Source of the DNA: Eubacterium sp.
Lineage (GTDB): Bacteria; Bacillota; Clostridia; Lachnospirales; Lachnospiraceae
Reading direction: 5' to 3'
DNA length: 36,022 bases
Assembly: GCA_017459345.1 (NCBI GenBank)
Contig: JAFUDC010000126.1
Location: 1 to 36,022 of the forward strand
Position 1 is the stretch's first letter. Each line of letters begins with the position of its first letter. The translations under genes were made by a program, and so were the position numbers. Positions 8,448 to 34,647 of the stretch are shown here, piece by piece. A model generated the notes under the pieces. It was not told where the DNA came from and did not search any database. It worked only from the letters and a program-made list of their open reading frames with translations.

Positions 8448-9662
8448 TCAAATATTCTTAAACCGTTCCATGGCTTTCAGGGTATTCTCATAGCTTCCAA
8501 AAGCTGTAAGCCGGAAGTAGCCTTCCCCGCTCGGACCAAATCCGGAACCGGGTGTCCCCACGATGCCAACCTTATCCAGCAGATAATCAAAGAAGTCCCA
8601 GGAGCTCATCCGGTTGGGTGTTTTGAGCCAGATATAGGGAGCGTTGACTCCGCCGTAGACCTCGAATCCCGCTGCCCCAAGGCCTTCCTTGATGGTTCGG
8701 GCATTGCGCATGTAATAGGCAACCTGGTCTTTGATCTGAGCCCTGCCCTCATCGCTATAGCAGGCAAACCCTGCCTTCTGGATGATATAGGGAGCTCCGT
8801 TATATTTGGTCCCATGCCGTCTTGCCCAGAGGGAGTGGAGGGTCACTTCTCCGCACTTTAATGCCTTGGGAACCACGGTAAAGCCCAGTCTGGTCCCGGT
8901 AAATCCGGCATTCTTGGAAAAGCTTCTAAGCTCGATGGCGCAGGTCTCTGCCCCCTTGCACTCATAGATGGAATGGGGTACATTTTCCTCTGTGATATAG
9001 GCCTCATAAGCGGCATCATAGATAATCACGGCACCCACGTTGTTAGCATAATCCACCCAGTCCTGCAGCTGGGACCTGGTCAGTGTGGTTCCTGTGGGAT
9101 TGTTGGGGATGCAGAGATAGATGATGTCCGGAACCTCCGTCGGAAAGTCCGGGATAAAGCCATTCTCTGCTGTACAGGGCATATAGATGACATCACTCCA
9201 GGTTTCCGTCCCCGGGTCATAGGTTCCCGCCCTGCCGGCCATGACATTGGTATCCACGTAAACCGGGTAGACCGGGTCACAGACTGCGATGCGGTTGTCC
9301 ACGGAGAAAATCTCCTGAATGTTGCCGGAGTCACATTTGGCCCCGTCACTGATAAAGATCTCATCTGCCTGGATCCGGCATCCCCGCTCCTGGTAATCCT
9401 GCCGGGCAATAGCGTTTCTTAAGAATTCATAGCCAAGATCAGGGGCATAGCCCTTGAAGGTATCAGCATGTCCCATCTCATCCACAGCCTCATGAAGGGT
9501 TTCAATGATTCTGGGAGCCAGGGGCTGGGTCACATCCCCGATTCCCAGACGGATCAGCTCCCTGTCCGGATGAGCTTCCTGATAGGCTGCCACCTTCCCC
9601 GCAATGTTGGAAAACAGGTAGCTTCCGGGTAACTTCAGGTAATTGTCATTTATCTTAAACAT
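8448..9662 (-). CDS. dapL: LL-diaminopimelate aminotransferase
   Basis: 404 residues, the usual DapL length. It transfers an amino group from glutamate to tetrahydrodipicolinate, giving LL-diaminopimelate in one step. It is a fold-type I PLP enzyme: the N-terminus (PGSYLFSNIAGKV and LIRLGIGDVTQPLAP) is characteristic of DapL, PNNPTGTTL is the cofactor-binding loop, and the PLP lysine lies in SFSKNAGFTGTRLGF. GGAGGAGG precedes the ATG. It follows dapF by 52 bases on the same strand; DapF would convert its product to meso-diaminopimelate for peptidoglycan and lysine, so the two genes form a pathway unit. No dapA, dapB or lysA is in the window. Confidence 0.95.
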   Translation of the reverse strand: MFKINDNYLKLPGSYLFSNIAGKVAAYQEAHPDRELIRLGIGDVTQPLAPRIIETLHEAVDEMGHADTFKGYAPDLGYEFLRNAIARQDYQERGCRIQADEIFISDGAKCDSGNIQEIFSVDNRIAVCDPVYPVYVDTNVMAGRAGTYDPGTETWSDVIYMPCTAENGFIPDFPTEVPDIIYLCIPNNPTGTTLTRSQLQDWVDYANNVGAVIIYDAAYEAYITEENVPHSIYECKGAETCAIELRSFSKNAGFTGTRLGFTVVPKALKCGEVTLHSLWARRHGTKYNGAPYIIQKAGFACYSDEGRAQIKDQVAYYMRNARTIKEGLGAAGFEVYGGVNAPYIWLKTPNRMSSWDFFDYLLDKVGIVGTPGSGFGPSGEGYFRLTAFGSYENTLKAMERFKNI

Positions 9663-9714: not shown

Positions 9715-10551
9715 TCAAATGGGATACAGGACCCCGTCAAAGACGGTGGTCGCCGGTCCGGTCATATAGATCAGATTACTCTCCCGGTCCCACTCGATAA
9801 AGAGGTCTCCCCCCAGCAAATGTACGGTCACCTTATCTTCAGTCAGGCCGTTTAATACACAGGCCACGACTGTAGCGCAGGTTCCGGTTCAGCAGGCCAG
9901 GGTCTCCCCGGACCCCCTCTCCCAGACCCTCATGTTGACGGTTGTCCGGTCGATCACCTCCACAAATTCCGTGTTGACCCTGTTGGGGAAACAGGGATGG
10001 TTTTCAAAGTGAGGGCCGATTGCTTCGATGTCCAGGTCCTTAACATGATCCATGAAGACAACGGCATGGGGATTGCCCATGGACACGCAGGTCATCCGGT
10101 ATTCCTGATCAAGGACGGTGATGGGCACATCAACGGCCGGATTCCTGTCACAGATTACCGGGATATCCTCCGGTACCAGAATGGGAGAGCCCATGTTGAC
10201 CCGGACCGTCTCCACCTTACCATCCTTTACCGTAAGCTTAAGGTACTTGATTCCGGCCAGAGTATCTACTGTAACCTCTGTCTTATCCGTAAGACCGTAG
10301 TCATAGACATATTTGCCTACACAGCGGATACCGTTGCCGCACATTTCCCCCCTGGACCCATCAGCGTTATACATATCCATCTGAAAATCTGCCTTCTCAG
10401 ATGGCCTTATGAGAATCAGGCCATCTGATCCGACGCCGAAATGTCTCTCGCTGACAAAGCGGGCCAGGGACTCCGGGTCCGCCACCTCCTCCTTAAAGCA
10501 GTTGACATAGACATAGTCATTACCGATTCCGTTCATCTTGGTAAATCGCAT
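9715..10551 (-). pseudogene. dapF: Diaminopimelate epimerase, interrupted by in-frame TGA
   Basis: DapF converts LL- to meso-diaminopimelate with two cysteines acting as acid and base. The first is Cys71 in MCGNGIRC; the second is Cys220 in ERGSGETLAC. The codon right after Cys220, Gly in the family motif ACGTG, is TGA here (9889-9891). The same frame then continues without a break as [14 protein letters not shown] and so on to a TGA at 9715-9717. The total is 278 codons plus stop, a normal DapF length. There is no frameshift; GGA to TGA is one base change. If TGA is read as stop, the protein ends at its catalytic Cys and loses the last 57 residues. It may be a nonsense mutation, an assembly error, or recoding. 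Start: GAGGAG about 8 bases before the ATG. It lies between the ANTAR gene and dapL. Confidence 0.85.
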
Positions 10552-15359: not shown

Positions 15360-16075
15360 TTTATGAACCGGTCCCCACATCTGGGACAGGTAATCTCTAT
15401 CTTTCCTTTTCCTTTCGGCACCCGGATCTTCTGCCTGCAGGCAGGACACTTGAAGAATTTAAATGCCTTCTTGTCCTCCCGGATCCTATCTTCCCGCATA
15501 CTGTCTGCCGATGCCCTGTAGCGGCGGCCCTGATTAAAGCTATCATTATCAGGGGATTGTCCTGATCCGGACTTCTCGGGGGACACTGCTATTTCAGACT
15601 CTCTCCCGGCATACCGAGTGGGCTCATCAGCAATCCCGGTACGGATGGGGTCAGCTGATACTCTCTCCGCTTCTCTTACCATCTGCCCACTGGTTAGATC
15701 AGACATAGTCTGTCTGTTTTCCGCGCGGAGGAGATGATCGGTGACCATATCAGCCTCATCGCTTTCGTCATACTCGTCTGATATTGTCTCATCTTCGGAA
15801 AAATCATCTTTTCCCTTCCGGACAAAGAGTGACTCCAGCAGGCGTACAAACCATTGGTTTGCTCTGGCTCTTCTTTCATGGTTGGTCGAAAAGAATCTCA
15901 GGAGACAAACCAGCAAGGGCAGGAAATTCAGCAGGTTCCAGGCTTTTGCACTCTCCACCCCCTGCTTAAACAGGAGGGTCGTAATCAGATTAATCAGGAG
16001 GCTTAGAAGAATAAGCCCGCAGGATAATGCATCCATCCCGTAGATTCTCATCAGATAATCCCTTATATTCTCCAT
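15350..16075 (-). CDS. Membrane-anchored protein with C-terminal zinc ribbon
   Basis: 241 residues of unknown function. Two hydrophobic helices near the N-terminus (about 15-37 and 43-60) are followed by a long polar, mostly acidic linker (about 90-190) without visible structure. The last 40 residues hold a zinc ribbon with two CPxC knuckles (KCPACRQKI and TCPRCGDRF) in a basic context. The arrangement suggests a membrane-tethered nucleic-acid or protein-binding ribbon. The gene ends inside the queH terminator and lies 34 bases downstream of the small export gene, so the two may be cotranscribed. Confidence 0.75.
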   Translation of the reverse strand: MENIRDYLMRIYGMDALSCGLILLSLLINLITTLLFKQGVESAKAWNLLNFLPLLVCLLRFFSTNHERRARANQWFVRLLESLFVRKGKDDFSEDETISDEYDESDEADMVTDHLLRAENRQTMSDLTSGQMVREAERVSADPIRTGIADEPTRYAGRESEIAVSPEKSGSGQSPDNDSFNQGRRYRASADSMREDRIREDKKAFKFFKCPACRQKIRVPKGKGKIEITCPRCGDRFIKKT

Positions 16076-30719: not shown

Positions 30720-30735
30720 GTTAGTATCCGCTAAC
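30720..30735. promoter_or_regulatory. Operator-like dyad over the transporter start site
   Basis: GTTAG, six bases, CTAAC. The dyad begins just after the -10 box and would overlap the start of transcription, the usual place for a TetR or MarR-type repressor. No such regulator gene is adjacent. Confidence 0.4.
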
Positions 30736-30736
30736 A

Positions 30737-30765
30737 ATTATTTCATCAACTCAATTAAAAGTCAA
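30737..30765 (-). promoter_or_regulatory. SigmaA-type promoter for the FtsX-type transporter
   Basis: On the minus strand TTGACT (30765-30760) and AATAAT (30742-30737) are 17 bases apart, about 90 bases before the ATPase start. Confidence 0.55.
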
Positions 30766-30816
30766 TAATACCCGGGACTTATGATAATAATTATCAATAT
30801 ATCTCTGAAACAGAAA

Positions 30817-30861
30817 CAGGCGAAAGGAAAAGGACCAAAAAGGTTCTTTTCCTTTCGCCTG
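30817..30861 (-). terminator. Long-stem terminator of the hydro-lyase genes
   Basis: CAGGCGAAAGGAAAAG at 30817-30832 pairs perfectly with its complement at 30846-30861; GACC/GGTT extends the stem inward. On the minus strand it is followed by TTTCTGTTTC, 21 bases after the last large-subunit gene. Confidence 0.8.
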
Positions 30862-30882
30862 TCATTCACTTATGAATTTACA

Positions 30883-32124
30883 TCATACCTCCGGCATGGT
30901 TATCCTGCCATAGATGGCGGAGGTAGCTGCCGTAGCCGGGGATCCCAGATAGATGCCCACCTTAGAGGTACCCATCCTGCCCAGGAAGTTCCGGTTGTTG
31001 GTGGCCAGTACCTTCTCCCCGTCAGTCAGGATTCCGCCGGCGCGGCCGCAGCAGAGGCCGCAGCCGGGCTGGGTGATGATGGCTCCTGCCCTTGCCAGGA
31101 TTTCCATATAACCTGCCTCGATGGCTTCCAGGTAGATCTTGCGGCTGGCCGGGGTGATGATCAGCTTGCAGGCTGTCTCTTTACCTTCAAGGATCTTTGC
31201 GGCAGCTGCCAGGTCCTCCAGACGGCCGTTGGTGCAGGAGCCGATAAATACCTGGTCAAGCTCCGTTCCCACAAGCTCGCTTACCGGATGGATGTTATCC
31301 ACCTGGGAAGGACAGGCGCAGACAGGAACCAGATCTTCCGCCCTGTATTCCATCACTCTTGCGTACTCAGCATCCTCGTCCCCATATAACCAGTCCACAT
31401 CAGATAATTCAACTTCAGAGTAGGCAGCGGTCTTCTCATCCGGGCGGAAGAGACAGCACTTGGCACCGGCCTCGATAGCCATGTTGGAGATGGTCATCCG
31501 GGAGGCCACGCTCATGGCATCCACTGCTGAACCGGTAATTTCCAGGGCCTTGTAGGTTGCTCCGTCAGCCCGGAGATCTCCGATCAGGGTCAGGATCACA
31601 TCCTTAGCCGATACATTTGCCGGGAGAGTACCGTCGATGACCACCTTGATGGTTTCAGGAACCCGGACCCAGAGCTGGCCGGTTCCCAGAATGGAGGCCA
31701 TCTCTGTGTAGCCGATTCCGGAGGAGAAGCAGCCTACACAGCCGTAGGTGGTGGTATGAGAGTCCGTTCCAAAGACGATATCCCCGGGCCTGGCATAACC
31801 CGCCTCGGTCATCAGCTGGTGGCAGATTCCGTCGCTTCTATGCACATGGGTCAGACCGTACTTCTTTGCAAATGCATCTCCAATTTTAAAATGTCTGATA
31901 TCCTCCACGGCGCTGGCAGGTACCAGGTGGTCATAGATCAGAACCACCTTGTCCGGATCCCAGAGCCTGGTAAATCCCATCTCTTCGAATTTATCCGCAA
32001 CAAAGGGGATAAAGATATCATGAATCATGACCCGGTCCACATTTACCGTGACGATCTGGCCGGCCTTCACATGGTCAGCCCCGATGTTGCGCTTAATAAT
32101 CTTTTCAATTAATGTATATCCCAT
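30883..32124 (-). CDS. Isopropylmalate dehydratase/homoaconitase family, large subunit (pair 2)
   Basis: 413 residues of the short LeuC type. The aconitase-family iron-sulfur cysteines are in IGSCTNGRLEDL and PGCGLCCG; active-site motifs GTDSHTTTYG, NMAIEAGAKCC and NRNFLGRMG are intact. The enzyme would isomerise or dehydrate a 2-hydroxy-diacid such as 2-isopropylmalate or methylmalate, with the small subunit encoded 14 bases upstream. This copy keeps the standard C-terminal run (NRNFLGRMG, SPATAA), so it is the better candidate for a true LeuC. No leuA or leuB is nearby, so the pathway cannot be fixed. Confidence 0.85.
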   Translation of the reverse strand: MGYTLIEKIIKRNIGADHVKAGQIVTVNVDRVMIHDIFIPFVADKFEEMGFTRLWDPDKVVLIYDHLVPASAVEDIRHFKIGDAFAKKYGLTHVHRSDGICHQLMTEAGYARPGDIVFGTDSHTTTYGCVGCFSSGIGYTEMASILGTGQLWVRVPETIKVVIDGTLPANVSAKDVILTLIGDLRADGATYKALEITGSAVDAMSVASRMTISNMAIEAGAKCCLFRPDEKTAAYSEVELSDVDWLYGDEDAEYARVMEYRAEDLVPVCACPSQVDNIHPVSELVGTELDQVFIGSCTNGRLEDLAAAAKILEGKETACKLIITPASRKIYLEAIEAGYMEILARAGAIITQPGCGLCCGRAGGILTDGEKVLATNNRNFLGRMGTSKVGIYLGSPATAATSAIYGRITMPEV

Positions 32125-32138
32125 GAATTAATCGCTCC

Positions 32139-32630
32139 TTAATGCTTTTTGTTTCTCTCCTGCATGGCTTTTACCAGTCCGCCGGCATTCAGGATTTCCA
32201 TCAGGTTCTGAGGGAGAGAGGTGATGGGGTAGGTCTTACCATCGTGTTCAATGGATTCGCCCACCTTAACCGTGATGCTGTCTCCTTCCTTAACCGCATC
32301 CTGGATCTCACTGTTTTCTATCAGCAGAAGCCCGTTATTGATGGAATTGCGGAAAAAAATTCTGGCATAGGACCTGGCGATGACGCAGCGGACCTTCAGG
32401 GCCTTGATGATCTCCGGAGCCTGCTCCCTGGAGGAGCCGCATCCGAAGTTCTTGCCTGCCACGATGATGTCACCCTCGCCGATCTGGGAGGCCAGCTCGG
32501 GGCGGAGGGGGGAAAAACCGTATTGTTTCATATCTTCAACAGTGGGGAGTGCCAGATACTCTGTGGGAATGATGATATCTGTGTCGATGTCATCCCCTAA
32601 TACCCAGACCTTTCCTGTAAATTGTTCCAT
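32139..32630 (-). CDS. Isopropylmalate dehydratase/homoaconitase family, small subunit (pair 2)
   Basis: 163 residues of the LeuD swivelling-domain type: DIDTDIIIPTEYLALP at about 13-28, NFGCGSSREQAP at about 61-72, SYARIFFRNSINNG after it. The variable loop after the YL pair in this family helps choose substrate; a hydrophobic YLAL here suits a non-polar side chain as in isopropylmalate, but this is inference. AAAGGA lies about 7 bases before the ATG. It precedes its large subunit by 14 bases, an order reversed from the classic leuCD. Confidence 0.85.
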   Translation of the reverse strand: MEQFTGKVWVLGDDIDTDIIIPTEYLALPTVEDMKQYGFSPLRPELASQIGEGDIIVAGKNFGCGSSREQAPEIIKALKVRCVIARSYARIFFRNSINNGLLLIENSEIQDAVKEGDSITVKVGESIEHDGKTYPITSLPQNLMEILNAGGLVKAMQERNKKH

Positions 32631-32667
32631 ATGTGTATCCTTTCTGTAATGTTTTAATATTTAGTCA

Positions 32668-32849
32668 ATTGCGAAACTCTGTCAAGGCTCGAAAATGTTC
32701 CTACGTCACACTGTTGCCTGGACATTTTCTTCATAATTGTTCGTCAATTCCATACTAAAGTATGTCCTTGCCGTACATTTATTCGAAATTGTCCATTCAA
32801 ACGTGCAACTTTAGGAATCATTTTTCGAGCCTGACACGAGTTTCGCAAT
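32668..32849. repeat. 182-bp imperfect palindrome (MITE-like or RNA hairpin)
   Basis: The ends ATTGCGAAACTC (32668-32679) and GAGTTTCGCAAT (32838-32849) are inverted; inside them GGCTCGAAAA/TTTTCGAGCC and TTCCTA/TAGGAA pair as well. The centre has its own small dyad CATACTAAAGTATG. The whole spacer between the two hydro-lyase pairs can fold on itself. No transposase or clear target duplication is visible. Confidence 0.6.
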
Positions 32850-32868
32850 CACCTAATTATAATTGGAT

Positions 32869-34128
32869 TCACCCCAGATCCTCCGGTCCGCAGATATAAC
32901 CTGCCACAGCGGAAGCGGCACATACCGCCGCATCTGCCATATAGACCTTGGAGCTGGGATGGCCAGCCCGACCCTTAAAGTTGCGGGTTCCGGTGGAAAT
33001 CAGCACTTCATTTTCTCCGATGACGCCCTGGCAGCTGCCCCAGCAGACGGAGCAGTTGCAGTTCATGATCATGGCACCGGCCTCCATCAGGGTGGTGATG
33101 ATACCCTCCTTAAGGGCATCGATGTAGACCTCCTTTGAAGCGGGGGCAACCAGGAAGCGGACGGAGGGGCTGATCTTTCTGCCCTTAACCACCTCTGCGG
33201 CAACCCGGAGGTCAGGAAGACGGCCGTTGTTGCAGGAGCCCACGAAGGATTCGTCAATGGCAATCTTCTCTTCCTTGACATCCTTTAAGAGGGCAAAGTT
33301 ATCCACAAAATCCGGGCGGACTACCACCGGCTCAATCTTGTCCAGATCATAATCATATACGGCAGCAAATACAGCATCTTCATCACTTTTGAACATGTGA
33401 ACTGCCTTCCGGCCCCGTTCCTCACAGTAAGCCGCAACCTTCTCATCCGGCTCCACAATACCTGCCTTGGCCCCGGCTTCCACAGTAAGATTGCACAGAA
33501 CCATCCGCTCATCGATGGAGAGATTATGGGCTCCCTCACCGGCAAATTCCATAATCTTATAGGTAGCCCCATTGGCTCCGATATCCCCGATGATGGTGAG
33601 TATCAGGTCCCTGGCATAGACCCCTTCTCTAAGCCTGCCATGAAGGTTGAAGCGGATAGTCTCCGGAACCATCACCCAGGAAGTACCGGTCACCATACCA
33701 TAGAGGAAATCCGTGCAGCCGACGCCCGTTCCGAAGGCTCCCAGGGCACCATAGCTTGTAGTATGAGAATCAGCGCCGAAGATCAGCTCTCCGGGGCAGA
33801 CGTAGTCTTCCATCATGATCTGGTGGCAGACCCCCTGTCCCTCGTAGAGACGGATGCCCTTTTCCCTGGCAAAGTTACGCATTTTCTTATGAGCCTCTGC
33901 AGTCTTGGGATTCTCCGCCGGCACATTGTGATCCATGATAAAGACCACCTTATCCGGATCGGCAATGCGGGGATTCTTAAGCTTGTTGTTGTACATATCC
34001 ACGGTAAGGTGGGTAGTACCATCATTGCTCATCATGCGGTCAAGGGTCACCGTGTGGATATCATTGGGCTTCACCTCATCCACACCGGCTGCCCGGGCAA
34101 TTATTTTCTCACCAATTGTCATTCCCAT
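32869..34128 (-). CDS. Divergent aconitase-family hydro-lyase, large subunit (pair 1)
   Basis: 419 residues. The fold and cluster cysteines are clear, but the signatures depart from LeuC: GSCNNGRLPDL replaces SCTNGRLEDL, the CxxC site is NCNCSVCWGSCQGV instead of the usual GCGPCLG, and the C-terminal SPATAA run is changed to ADAAVCAASAV. GADSHTTSYGALG and TRNFKGRAG are kept. These changes suggest a different substrate, for example a methyl- or dimethylmalate-type dehydratase as known from anaerobic Eubacterium, though I cannot show this. The small-subunit gene ends 2 bases upstream, so the pair is cotranslated. Confidence 0.82.
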   Translation of the reverse strand: MGMTIGEKIIARAAGVDEVKPNDIHTVTLDRMMSNDGTTHLTVDMYNNKLKNPRIADPDKVVFIMDHNVPAENPKTAEAHKKMRNFAREKGIRLYEGQGVCHQIMMEDYVCPGELIFGADSHTTSYGALGAFGTGVGCTDFLYGMVTGTSWVMVPETIRFNLHGRLREGVYARDLILTIIGDIGANGATYKIMEFAGEGAHNLSIDERMVLCNLTVEAGAKAGIVEPDEKVAAYCEERGRKAVHMFKSDEDAVFAAVYDYDLDKIEPVVVRPDFVDNFALLKDVKEEKIAIDESFVGSCNNGRLPDLRVAAEVVKGRKISPSVRFLVAPASKEVYIDALKEGIITTLMEAGAMIMNCNCSVCWGSCQGVIGENEVLISTGTRNFKGRAGHPSSKVYMADAAVCAASAVAGYICGPEDLG

Positions 34129-34130
34129 GA

Positions 34131-34610
34131 TTATTCCTCCCCCTTGTTCAGTGAGGCGATCAGACCGCCCTGAGATAAAATGTTCTGCATATATTCCGGA
34201 AGCCTGGTACAGGAATATGTCTTTCCTCCTGCCGTGACCGTACCTGCCGAGAGGTCAAGGTCAGCCTGGTCTCCATCCTCCACGGCATCATAGAGGTCCT
34301 TACAGACGATAACCGGGAAGCCGATATTGATGGAATTGCGGTAGAAGATCCGGGCGTAGGACTTGGCAATTACTGCCTTAACCCCCAGGGCCTTCAGCAC
34401 GCTGGGCGCCTGCTCTCTGGAAGAACCACATCCGAAATTCTCCCCTGCCACAACGATATCCCCGGGCTGCACTCTGGCAGCAAAATCCGGATCAAGAGAT
34501 TCAAAGGTATACTCTTTCATCGCATCGATATCCGGCAGAAGCAGATACTGGGAAGCGATGATCTGATCGGTGTCCACATCATTGTGAAACTTCCAAACCT
34601 GGTTGCTCAT
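34131..34610 (-). CDS. Aconitase-family hydro-lyase, small subunit (pair 1)
   Basis: 159 residues from the second in-frame ATG at 34610. GGAGG abuts the first ATG (34619) directly, leaving no spacing, but lies 9 bases before the second, so the second is preferred. LeuD motifs: DVDTDQIIASQYLLLP, NFGCGSSREQAPS, SYARIFYRNSINIGFP. It shares perhaps half its residues with the pair-2 small subunit by eye, so the pairs look like an old duplication or separate acquisitions rather than a recent copy. First gene of the series. Confidence 0.84.
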   Translation of the reverse strand: MSNQVWKFHNDVDTDQIIASQYLLLPDIDAMKEYTFESLDPDFAARVQPGDIVVAGENFGCGSSREQAPSVLKALGVKAVIAKSYARIFYRNSINIGFPVIVCKDLYDAVEDGDQADLDLSAGTVTAGGKTYSCTRLPEYMQNILSQGGLIASLNKGEE

Positions 34611-34647
34611 AGTATTCATCCTCCAATTAATTATTACATAATTATTC

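Follow-up and report, generated by a model that had tools for sequence, protein, structure and literature searches.

The gene dapF, encoding diaminopimelate epimerase, is interrupted by one in-frame TGA codon in the window, i.e., the whole analyzed stretch of 36,022 nucleotides of Eubacterium sp. (assembly GCA_017459345.1, contig JAFUDC010000126.1). This TGA is most likely an ordinary single-base nonsense allele or an error. With a probability of roughly 0.52, it represents a real, recent, strain-level nonsense allele of dapF, and the lost step would be bypassed by meso-diaminopimelate dehydrogenase (Ddh). According to this reading, the conserved Gly codon of the sampled strain would have become TGA by a single-base substitution; translation would end at this codon, acting as an ordinary stop, directly after Cys220, leaving no working DapF, and Ddh would still supply meso-diaminopimelate from tetrahydrodipicolinate in one step.

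The dapF reading frame and codon 221

The gene dapF is located at positions 9715–10551 on the minus strand and comprises 278 codons, with the ATG start at 10551 and a second TGA, codon 279, at 9715–9717. The first TGA is codon 221 (9889–9891, minus strand). It directly follows the codon of Cys220 (9892–9894, minus strand), recognized as catalytic from the alignment with a solved DapF and from the role described for this Cys in PMC12039745, which would be the last residue of the truncated product. No other internal stop is present, but the frame is not the uninterrupted one of a regular DapF. With the stop translated as X, the product matches the TIGR00652 model with 299.7 bits (cut-off 114.65) over residues 1–275, and residues 2–274 align with the best-matching solved DapF. 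Codons of both catalytic cysteines are present, in the segments MCGNGIRC and ETLAC. Accordingly, the gene resembles the DapF family (TIGR00652, PF01678) in the whole-length match, in both catalytic cysteines and in the conserved flanks, and differs from it by one TGA, which replaces the Gly codon following the second catalytic Cys.

Several statements of the first-pass annotation were thereby confirmed: the TGA does lie right after the second catalytic Cys, the span 9886–9894 corresponds to codons 220–222 (Cys-TGA-Thr), and the normal C-terminus is still encoded downstream with no other decay, the frame being clean to codon 279 and no other invariant column being altered. The annotation had also assigned Gly to this position in the family, which agrees with the alignment of relatives. 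Codon 221 is GGN in all 109 related loci read (L004–L112), namely, in 108 of them by motif and in L018, which reads GGG. This set combines the 29 best relatives (50 of 61 genomes matched, the source genome included) with the best 80 of 592 confirmed loci, and at least four contigs occur in it twice. None of these 109 loci has a stop at codon 221; a stop shared with relatives was rejected, the stops flagged in genomes G001 and G099 being, among the matches listed, the terminal stops of the genes themselves. Since Gly occupies the position in all loci read, TGA is the derived state, one base away from a Gly codon.

In the alignment of 26 relatives, consisting of the usable full-length genes among the 29 loci L004–L032 (L023, L027 and L030 were dropped), TGA 221 is the only departure of the window dapF from invariant columns. 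The segments on both sides of the stop are similarly conserved, their amino acid identity to six relatives amounting to 0.76–0.81 before and 0.72–0.83 after the stop; identity was used instead of dN/dS, because most pairs showed saturation at synonymous sites. Because the rest of the gene is without decay, the lesion would be recent. The related dapF loci belong to records such as Lachnospiraceae and Eubacterium, many of them from gut or rumen samples, and it is from the origin of these samples that the source bacterium may be labeled as gut-type.

In DapF of Anabaena, the Gly and Thr residues directly following Cys, at the N-terminus of a helix, are described as binding the substrate carboxylate via backbone amides (PMC12039745). 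By analogy, a product ending at Cys220, devoid of this Gly and Thr and of everything after them, would be very unlikely to function. The same residues bear on the assumption of a split enzyme, in which active DapF would be formed from two parts, the 220-residue product and a C-terminal fragment whose translation restarts at GTG 9867. This in-frame GTG is located 8 codons past the TGA and opens an ORF of 50 residues, but the split would remove the residues that immediately follow the catalytic Cys and that in Anabaena contact the substrate, and a stop at codon 221 was seen in no relative examined. The chance of a split enzyme is close to negligible.

Selenocysteine machinery and other recoding

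Recoding of UGA 221, by selenocysteine or by another programmed mechanism, would result in full-length DapF. This option of the first-pass annotation is in agreement with the position of the site next to the catalytic Cys, with the presence of SelD and with a hairpin downstream of the TGA; nevertheless, it is very improbable in view of the genes found. In the search for selA, selB, selC and selD in the source genome, only SelD was detected above the cut-off (402.6 bits against 125). SelA was found neither in the source genome nor in 15 relatives of the genus, among 25 genomes searched, whereas the Escherichia coli control was positive; the two SelA-positive genomes of the 25 belong to other families of the order. 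The best match to tRNA-Sec, with 111 of 241 first-look candidates scored, reached 40.2 bits, below the gathering score of 47, and was located at tRNA-Gly genes. The best SelB match of 182.9 bits is below the cut-off of 242.25; its gene adjoins fusA and reads by eye as that of EF-Tu, and it was rejected as SelB.

The presence of SelD is probably explained by YedF and YqeB. The gene selD is flanked by genes of a TIGR01977 desulfurase-like protein and of YedF (TIGR03527) at positions 15411–18594 of contig C139 of the source genome, while YqeB (TIGR03309) is encoded on contig C172 at positions 1469–2293. For Enterococcus faecalis, PMC2276186 describes the same selD neighbors without the selenocysteine and selenouridine systems, selD being tied to selenium-dependent molybdenum hydroxylases; in a later survey, YqeB and YqeC together mark the selenium cofactor trait (PMC5029168). 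The source genome resembles the selenium cofactor genomes described in PMC2276186, which have SelD and no selenocysteine genes, in the location of SelD beside YedF and the TIGR01977 protein and in the presence of YqeB. It is therefore likely that SelD, YedF and YqeB represent the selenium cofactor trait without selenocysteine, YqeB being the marker of the pair that was searched for.

Compared with bacterial selenoproteins, the window dapF is similar in having an in-frame TGA within a conserved enzyme and a hairpin downstream of it. It differs in that SelA, SelB and tRNA-Sec were not found, in that the residue of the homologs is Gly rather than Cys, and in that no second TGA-bearing homolog was seen. 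None of the 109 loci read has Cys at the position of the UGA, Gly being present in all of them. In the selenoprotein survey of the Sargasso Sea, as described in PMC1088965, Cys homologs were required, and a lone TGA-bearing sequence was regarded only as a candidate owing to a possible sequencing error. The literature matches for diaminopimelate epimerase together with selenocysteine had neither term in the title or abstract.

The hairpin is modest: the 60 nt beginning with the TGA (9832–9891, minus strand) fold with −17.2 kcal/mol, and the hairpin, its apical loop opened by G, lies about 30 nt past the TGA. Its z-score of about −2.3 to −2.5 is the lowest among 27 homologous segments, of which the second lowest has −1.79. 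The bacterial SECIS loop has G among its first two bases, a length of 3–14 nt and a start 16–37 nt after the UGA. Among 400 random in-frame segments of the genes of this genome, 23 reach the z-score of the hairpin, 126 fit the loop rule and 8 do both. The hairpin was not taken as a SECIS element, as 2% of random segments equal it on z-score and loop rule and the selenocysteine machinery was not found; with SelA, SelB and tRNA-Sec missing from the search results, it is suggestive at most and carries little weight for recoding.

Reassignment of TGA throughout the genome, of the type of genetic code 4 or 25, was excluded in practice. Of the 77 genes of the disruption control, described below, the 73 in which a stop occurs no more than 50 codons from the match were scored, and in 28 of these (9 of 21 for the window) the next stop is TGA. 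The anticodon UCA is present in none of the 34 tRNAs found, a set that is incomplete and lacks tRNA-Trp and several others. This incompleteness leaves room for a suppressor tRNA outside the assembly; readthrough of UGA 221 by such a tRNA, or by a recoding signal of unknown type, would produce full-length DapF with a residue other than Gly beside the Cys, and is even less probable than programmed recoding.

The Ddh route and retention of dapF in the family

Meso-diaminopimelate is a precursor of the cell wall and of lysine. Ddh forms it from tetrahydrodipicolinate in one step, bypassing DapF. In the source genome, ddh is intact at positions 645–1625 of contig C59 and matches the TIGR01921 model with 446.3 bits (cut-off 180.6), the scores of the intact gene ranging over 446–448 bits. 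A second dapF was not found in the whole assembly, either with the Pfam model or by protein search, the window copy being the only one found. In the first-pass annotation, DapF was expected to be essential in the case where DapL is the aminotransferase; this premise fails, since the intact ddh encodes a bypass of it. Among the explanations called simplest in the first-pass annotation, a sequencing error and a recent nonsense mutation both stand, whereas the second dapF, by which the mutation was to be tolerated, was not found in the assembly, and the Ddh bypass would take its place.

For Corynebacterium glutamicum, coexistence of both routes to meso-diaminopimelate is described, the dehydrogenase route requiring high ammonium (PMC8396482). 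The source genome is similar in encoding two such routes, via DapF and via Ddh, and differs in that its route through LL-diaminopimelate uses DapL and its DapF is interrupted. If the nonsense allele is real, it would illustrate, on a small scale, the loss of one of the two routes by a Lachnospiraceae-type strain in which Ddh is left; conditions, for example the supply of ammonium, would then determine whether DapF is needed.

The gene ddh was found above the cut-off in 12 of 15 relatives of the genus. Two genomes with ddh have no intact dapF in their assemblies and support the reading of the TGA as a real nonsense allele: G042, of the same order and listed as 100% complete, in which dapF was undetected, and G110, of another genus of the same family and listed as 95% complete. 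On contig C123 of G110 (locus L243), the N-terminal region of dapF continues in frame into a sequence resembling, by eye, the C-terminus of dapL. An internal deletion and an assembly error are both possible origins of this fusion, and the possible assembly error weakens the support that G110 gives.

The survey of the family, in which the ddh and dapF tables for 150 genomes at least 90% complete were cross-tabulated, also weakens the real-nonsense reading. Among 85 genomes with ddh above the cut-off, 84, the source genome included, also match dapF above the cut-off, G110 being the exception; consequently, dapF is generally not lost from genomes that have ddh. A dapF match is missing from 14 of the 150 genomes, and 0 of these 14 have ddh above the cut-off, 8 of the 14 not being among the genomes listed in the ddh survey, where 38 genomes without a match are unlisted. 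Judging from these genomes, Ddh makes a cell without functional dapF plausible, yet ordinarily does not lead to the loss of dapF.

Assembly quality, strain mixing and gene neighborhood

An artefact of the consensus would consist of one wrong base in the codon, or of a base originating from minority reads, in a fragmented and strain-mixed assembly, with dapF intact in the cells. Such an artefact is a serious contender, its chance falling somewhat short of even, and from the sequence it fits about as well as a real nonsense codon. The assembly of the source genome consists of 188 contigs, with a completeness of 97.38% and contamination of 3.1%. Mixing is directly visible at the locus of the ABC-ATPase gene and ddh, which was assembled twice, at C59:1–3067 (L153) and C65:15000–17885 (L154); the DNA of the copies is 96.2% identical across 528 bases and 94.1% identical across 615. 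The presence of this locus twice at 94–96% identity indicates that the bin is a mixture of two strains or near species. The full-length ddh is located on the small contig C59 of 3,067 bases, which also weakens the real-nonsense reading, while the copy of the second strain runs off the end of the 17,885-base contig C65.

An artefact is also consistent with the normal constraint on the remainder of dapF and with retention of the gene in nearly all ddh-bearing genomes of the family, as well as with the caution about lone TGA-bearing sequences expressed in PMC1088965. The disruption control points in the opposite direction. For this control, 921 ORFs from relatives were compared with 403,122 bases of the genome, and 77 non-overlapping gene matches were obtained, which together span 79,278 bp; the window accounts for 22 of these matches. 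Internal stops occur in two matches, and dapF alone has one in well-aligned sequence, the stops of L175 falling within an N-terminal extension that aligns poorly. Among the 77 matches, there were no frameshift candidates. With looser thresholds, ten rows contained stops: six were dapF, three were antisense to clpX or rho, as judged by eye, and one was L175. Assembly errors are thus apparently not frequent, although, as a rough estimate from the size of the control, there may still be tens of them per genome.

The interpretation of the TGA as a real nonsense allele, with an inactive truncated product and the flux carried by Ddh, is supported by the clean control of 77 genes, together with the otherwise conserved sequence of dapF, its single copy, the intact ddh and the use of TGA as a normal stop. 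If the codon is an error, the case indicates that recoding is not to be concluded from a single in-frame TGA of an assembly with mixed strains before the selenocysteine genes, the residue of the homologs and a bypass enzyme have been checked.

In the window, dapF is flanked on one side by dapL and on the other by glnA and a gene of an ANTAR-type regulator, the latter two named by eye. The gene dapL (8448–9662, minus strand), encoding LL-diaminopimelate aminotransferase, is located 52 bp downstream of dapF and matches the TIGR03542 model with 594.3 bits (cut-off 364.7). The order glnA, regulator gene, dapF and dapL was found in several of the relatives examined, though not in every stretch. Elsewhere in the window, at positions 30721–34619, two apparent tandem pairs of genes were recognized by eye, each consisting of genes for aconitase-like large and small subunits of the 3-isopropylmalate dehydratase type.
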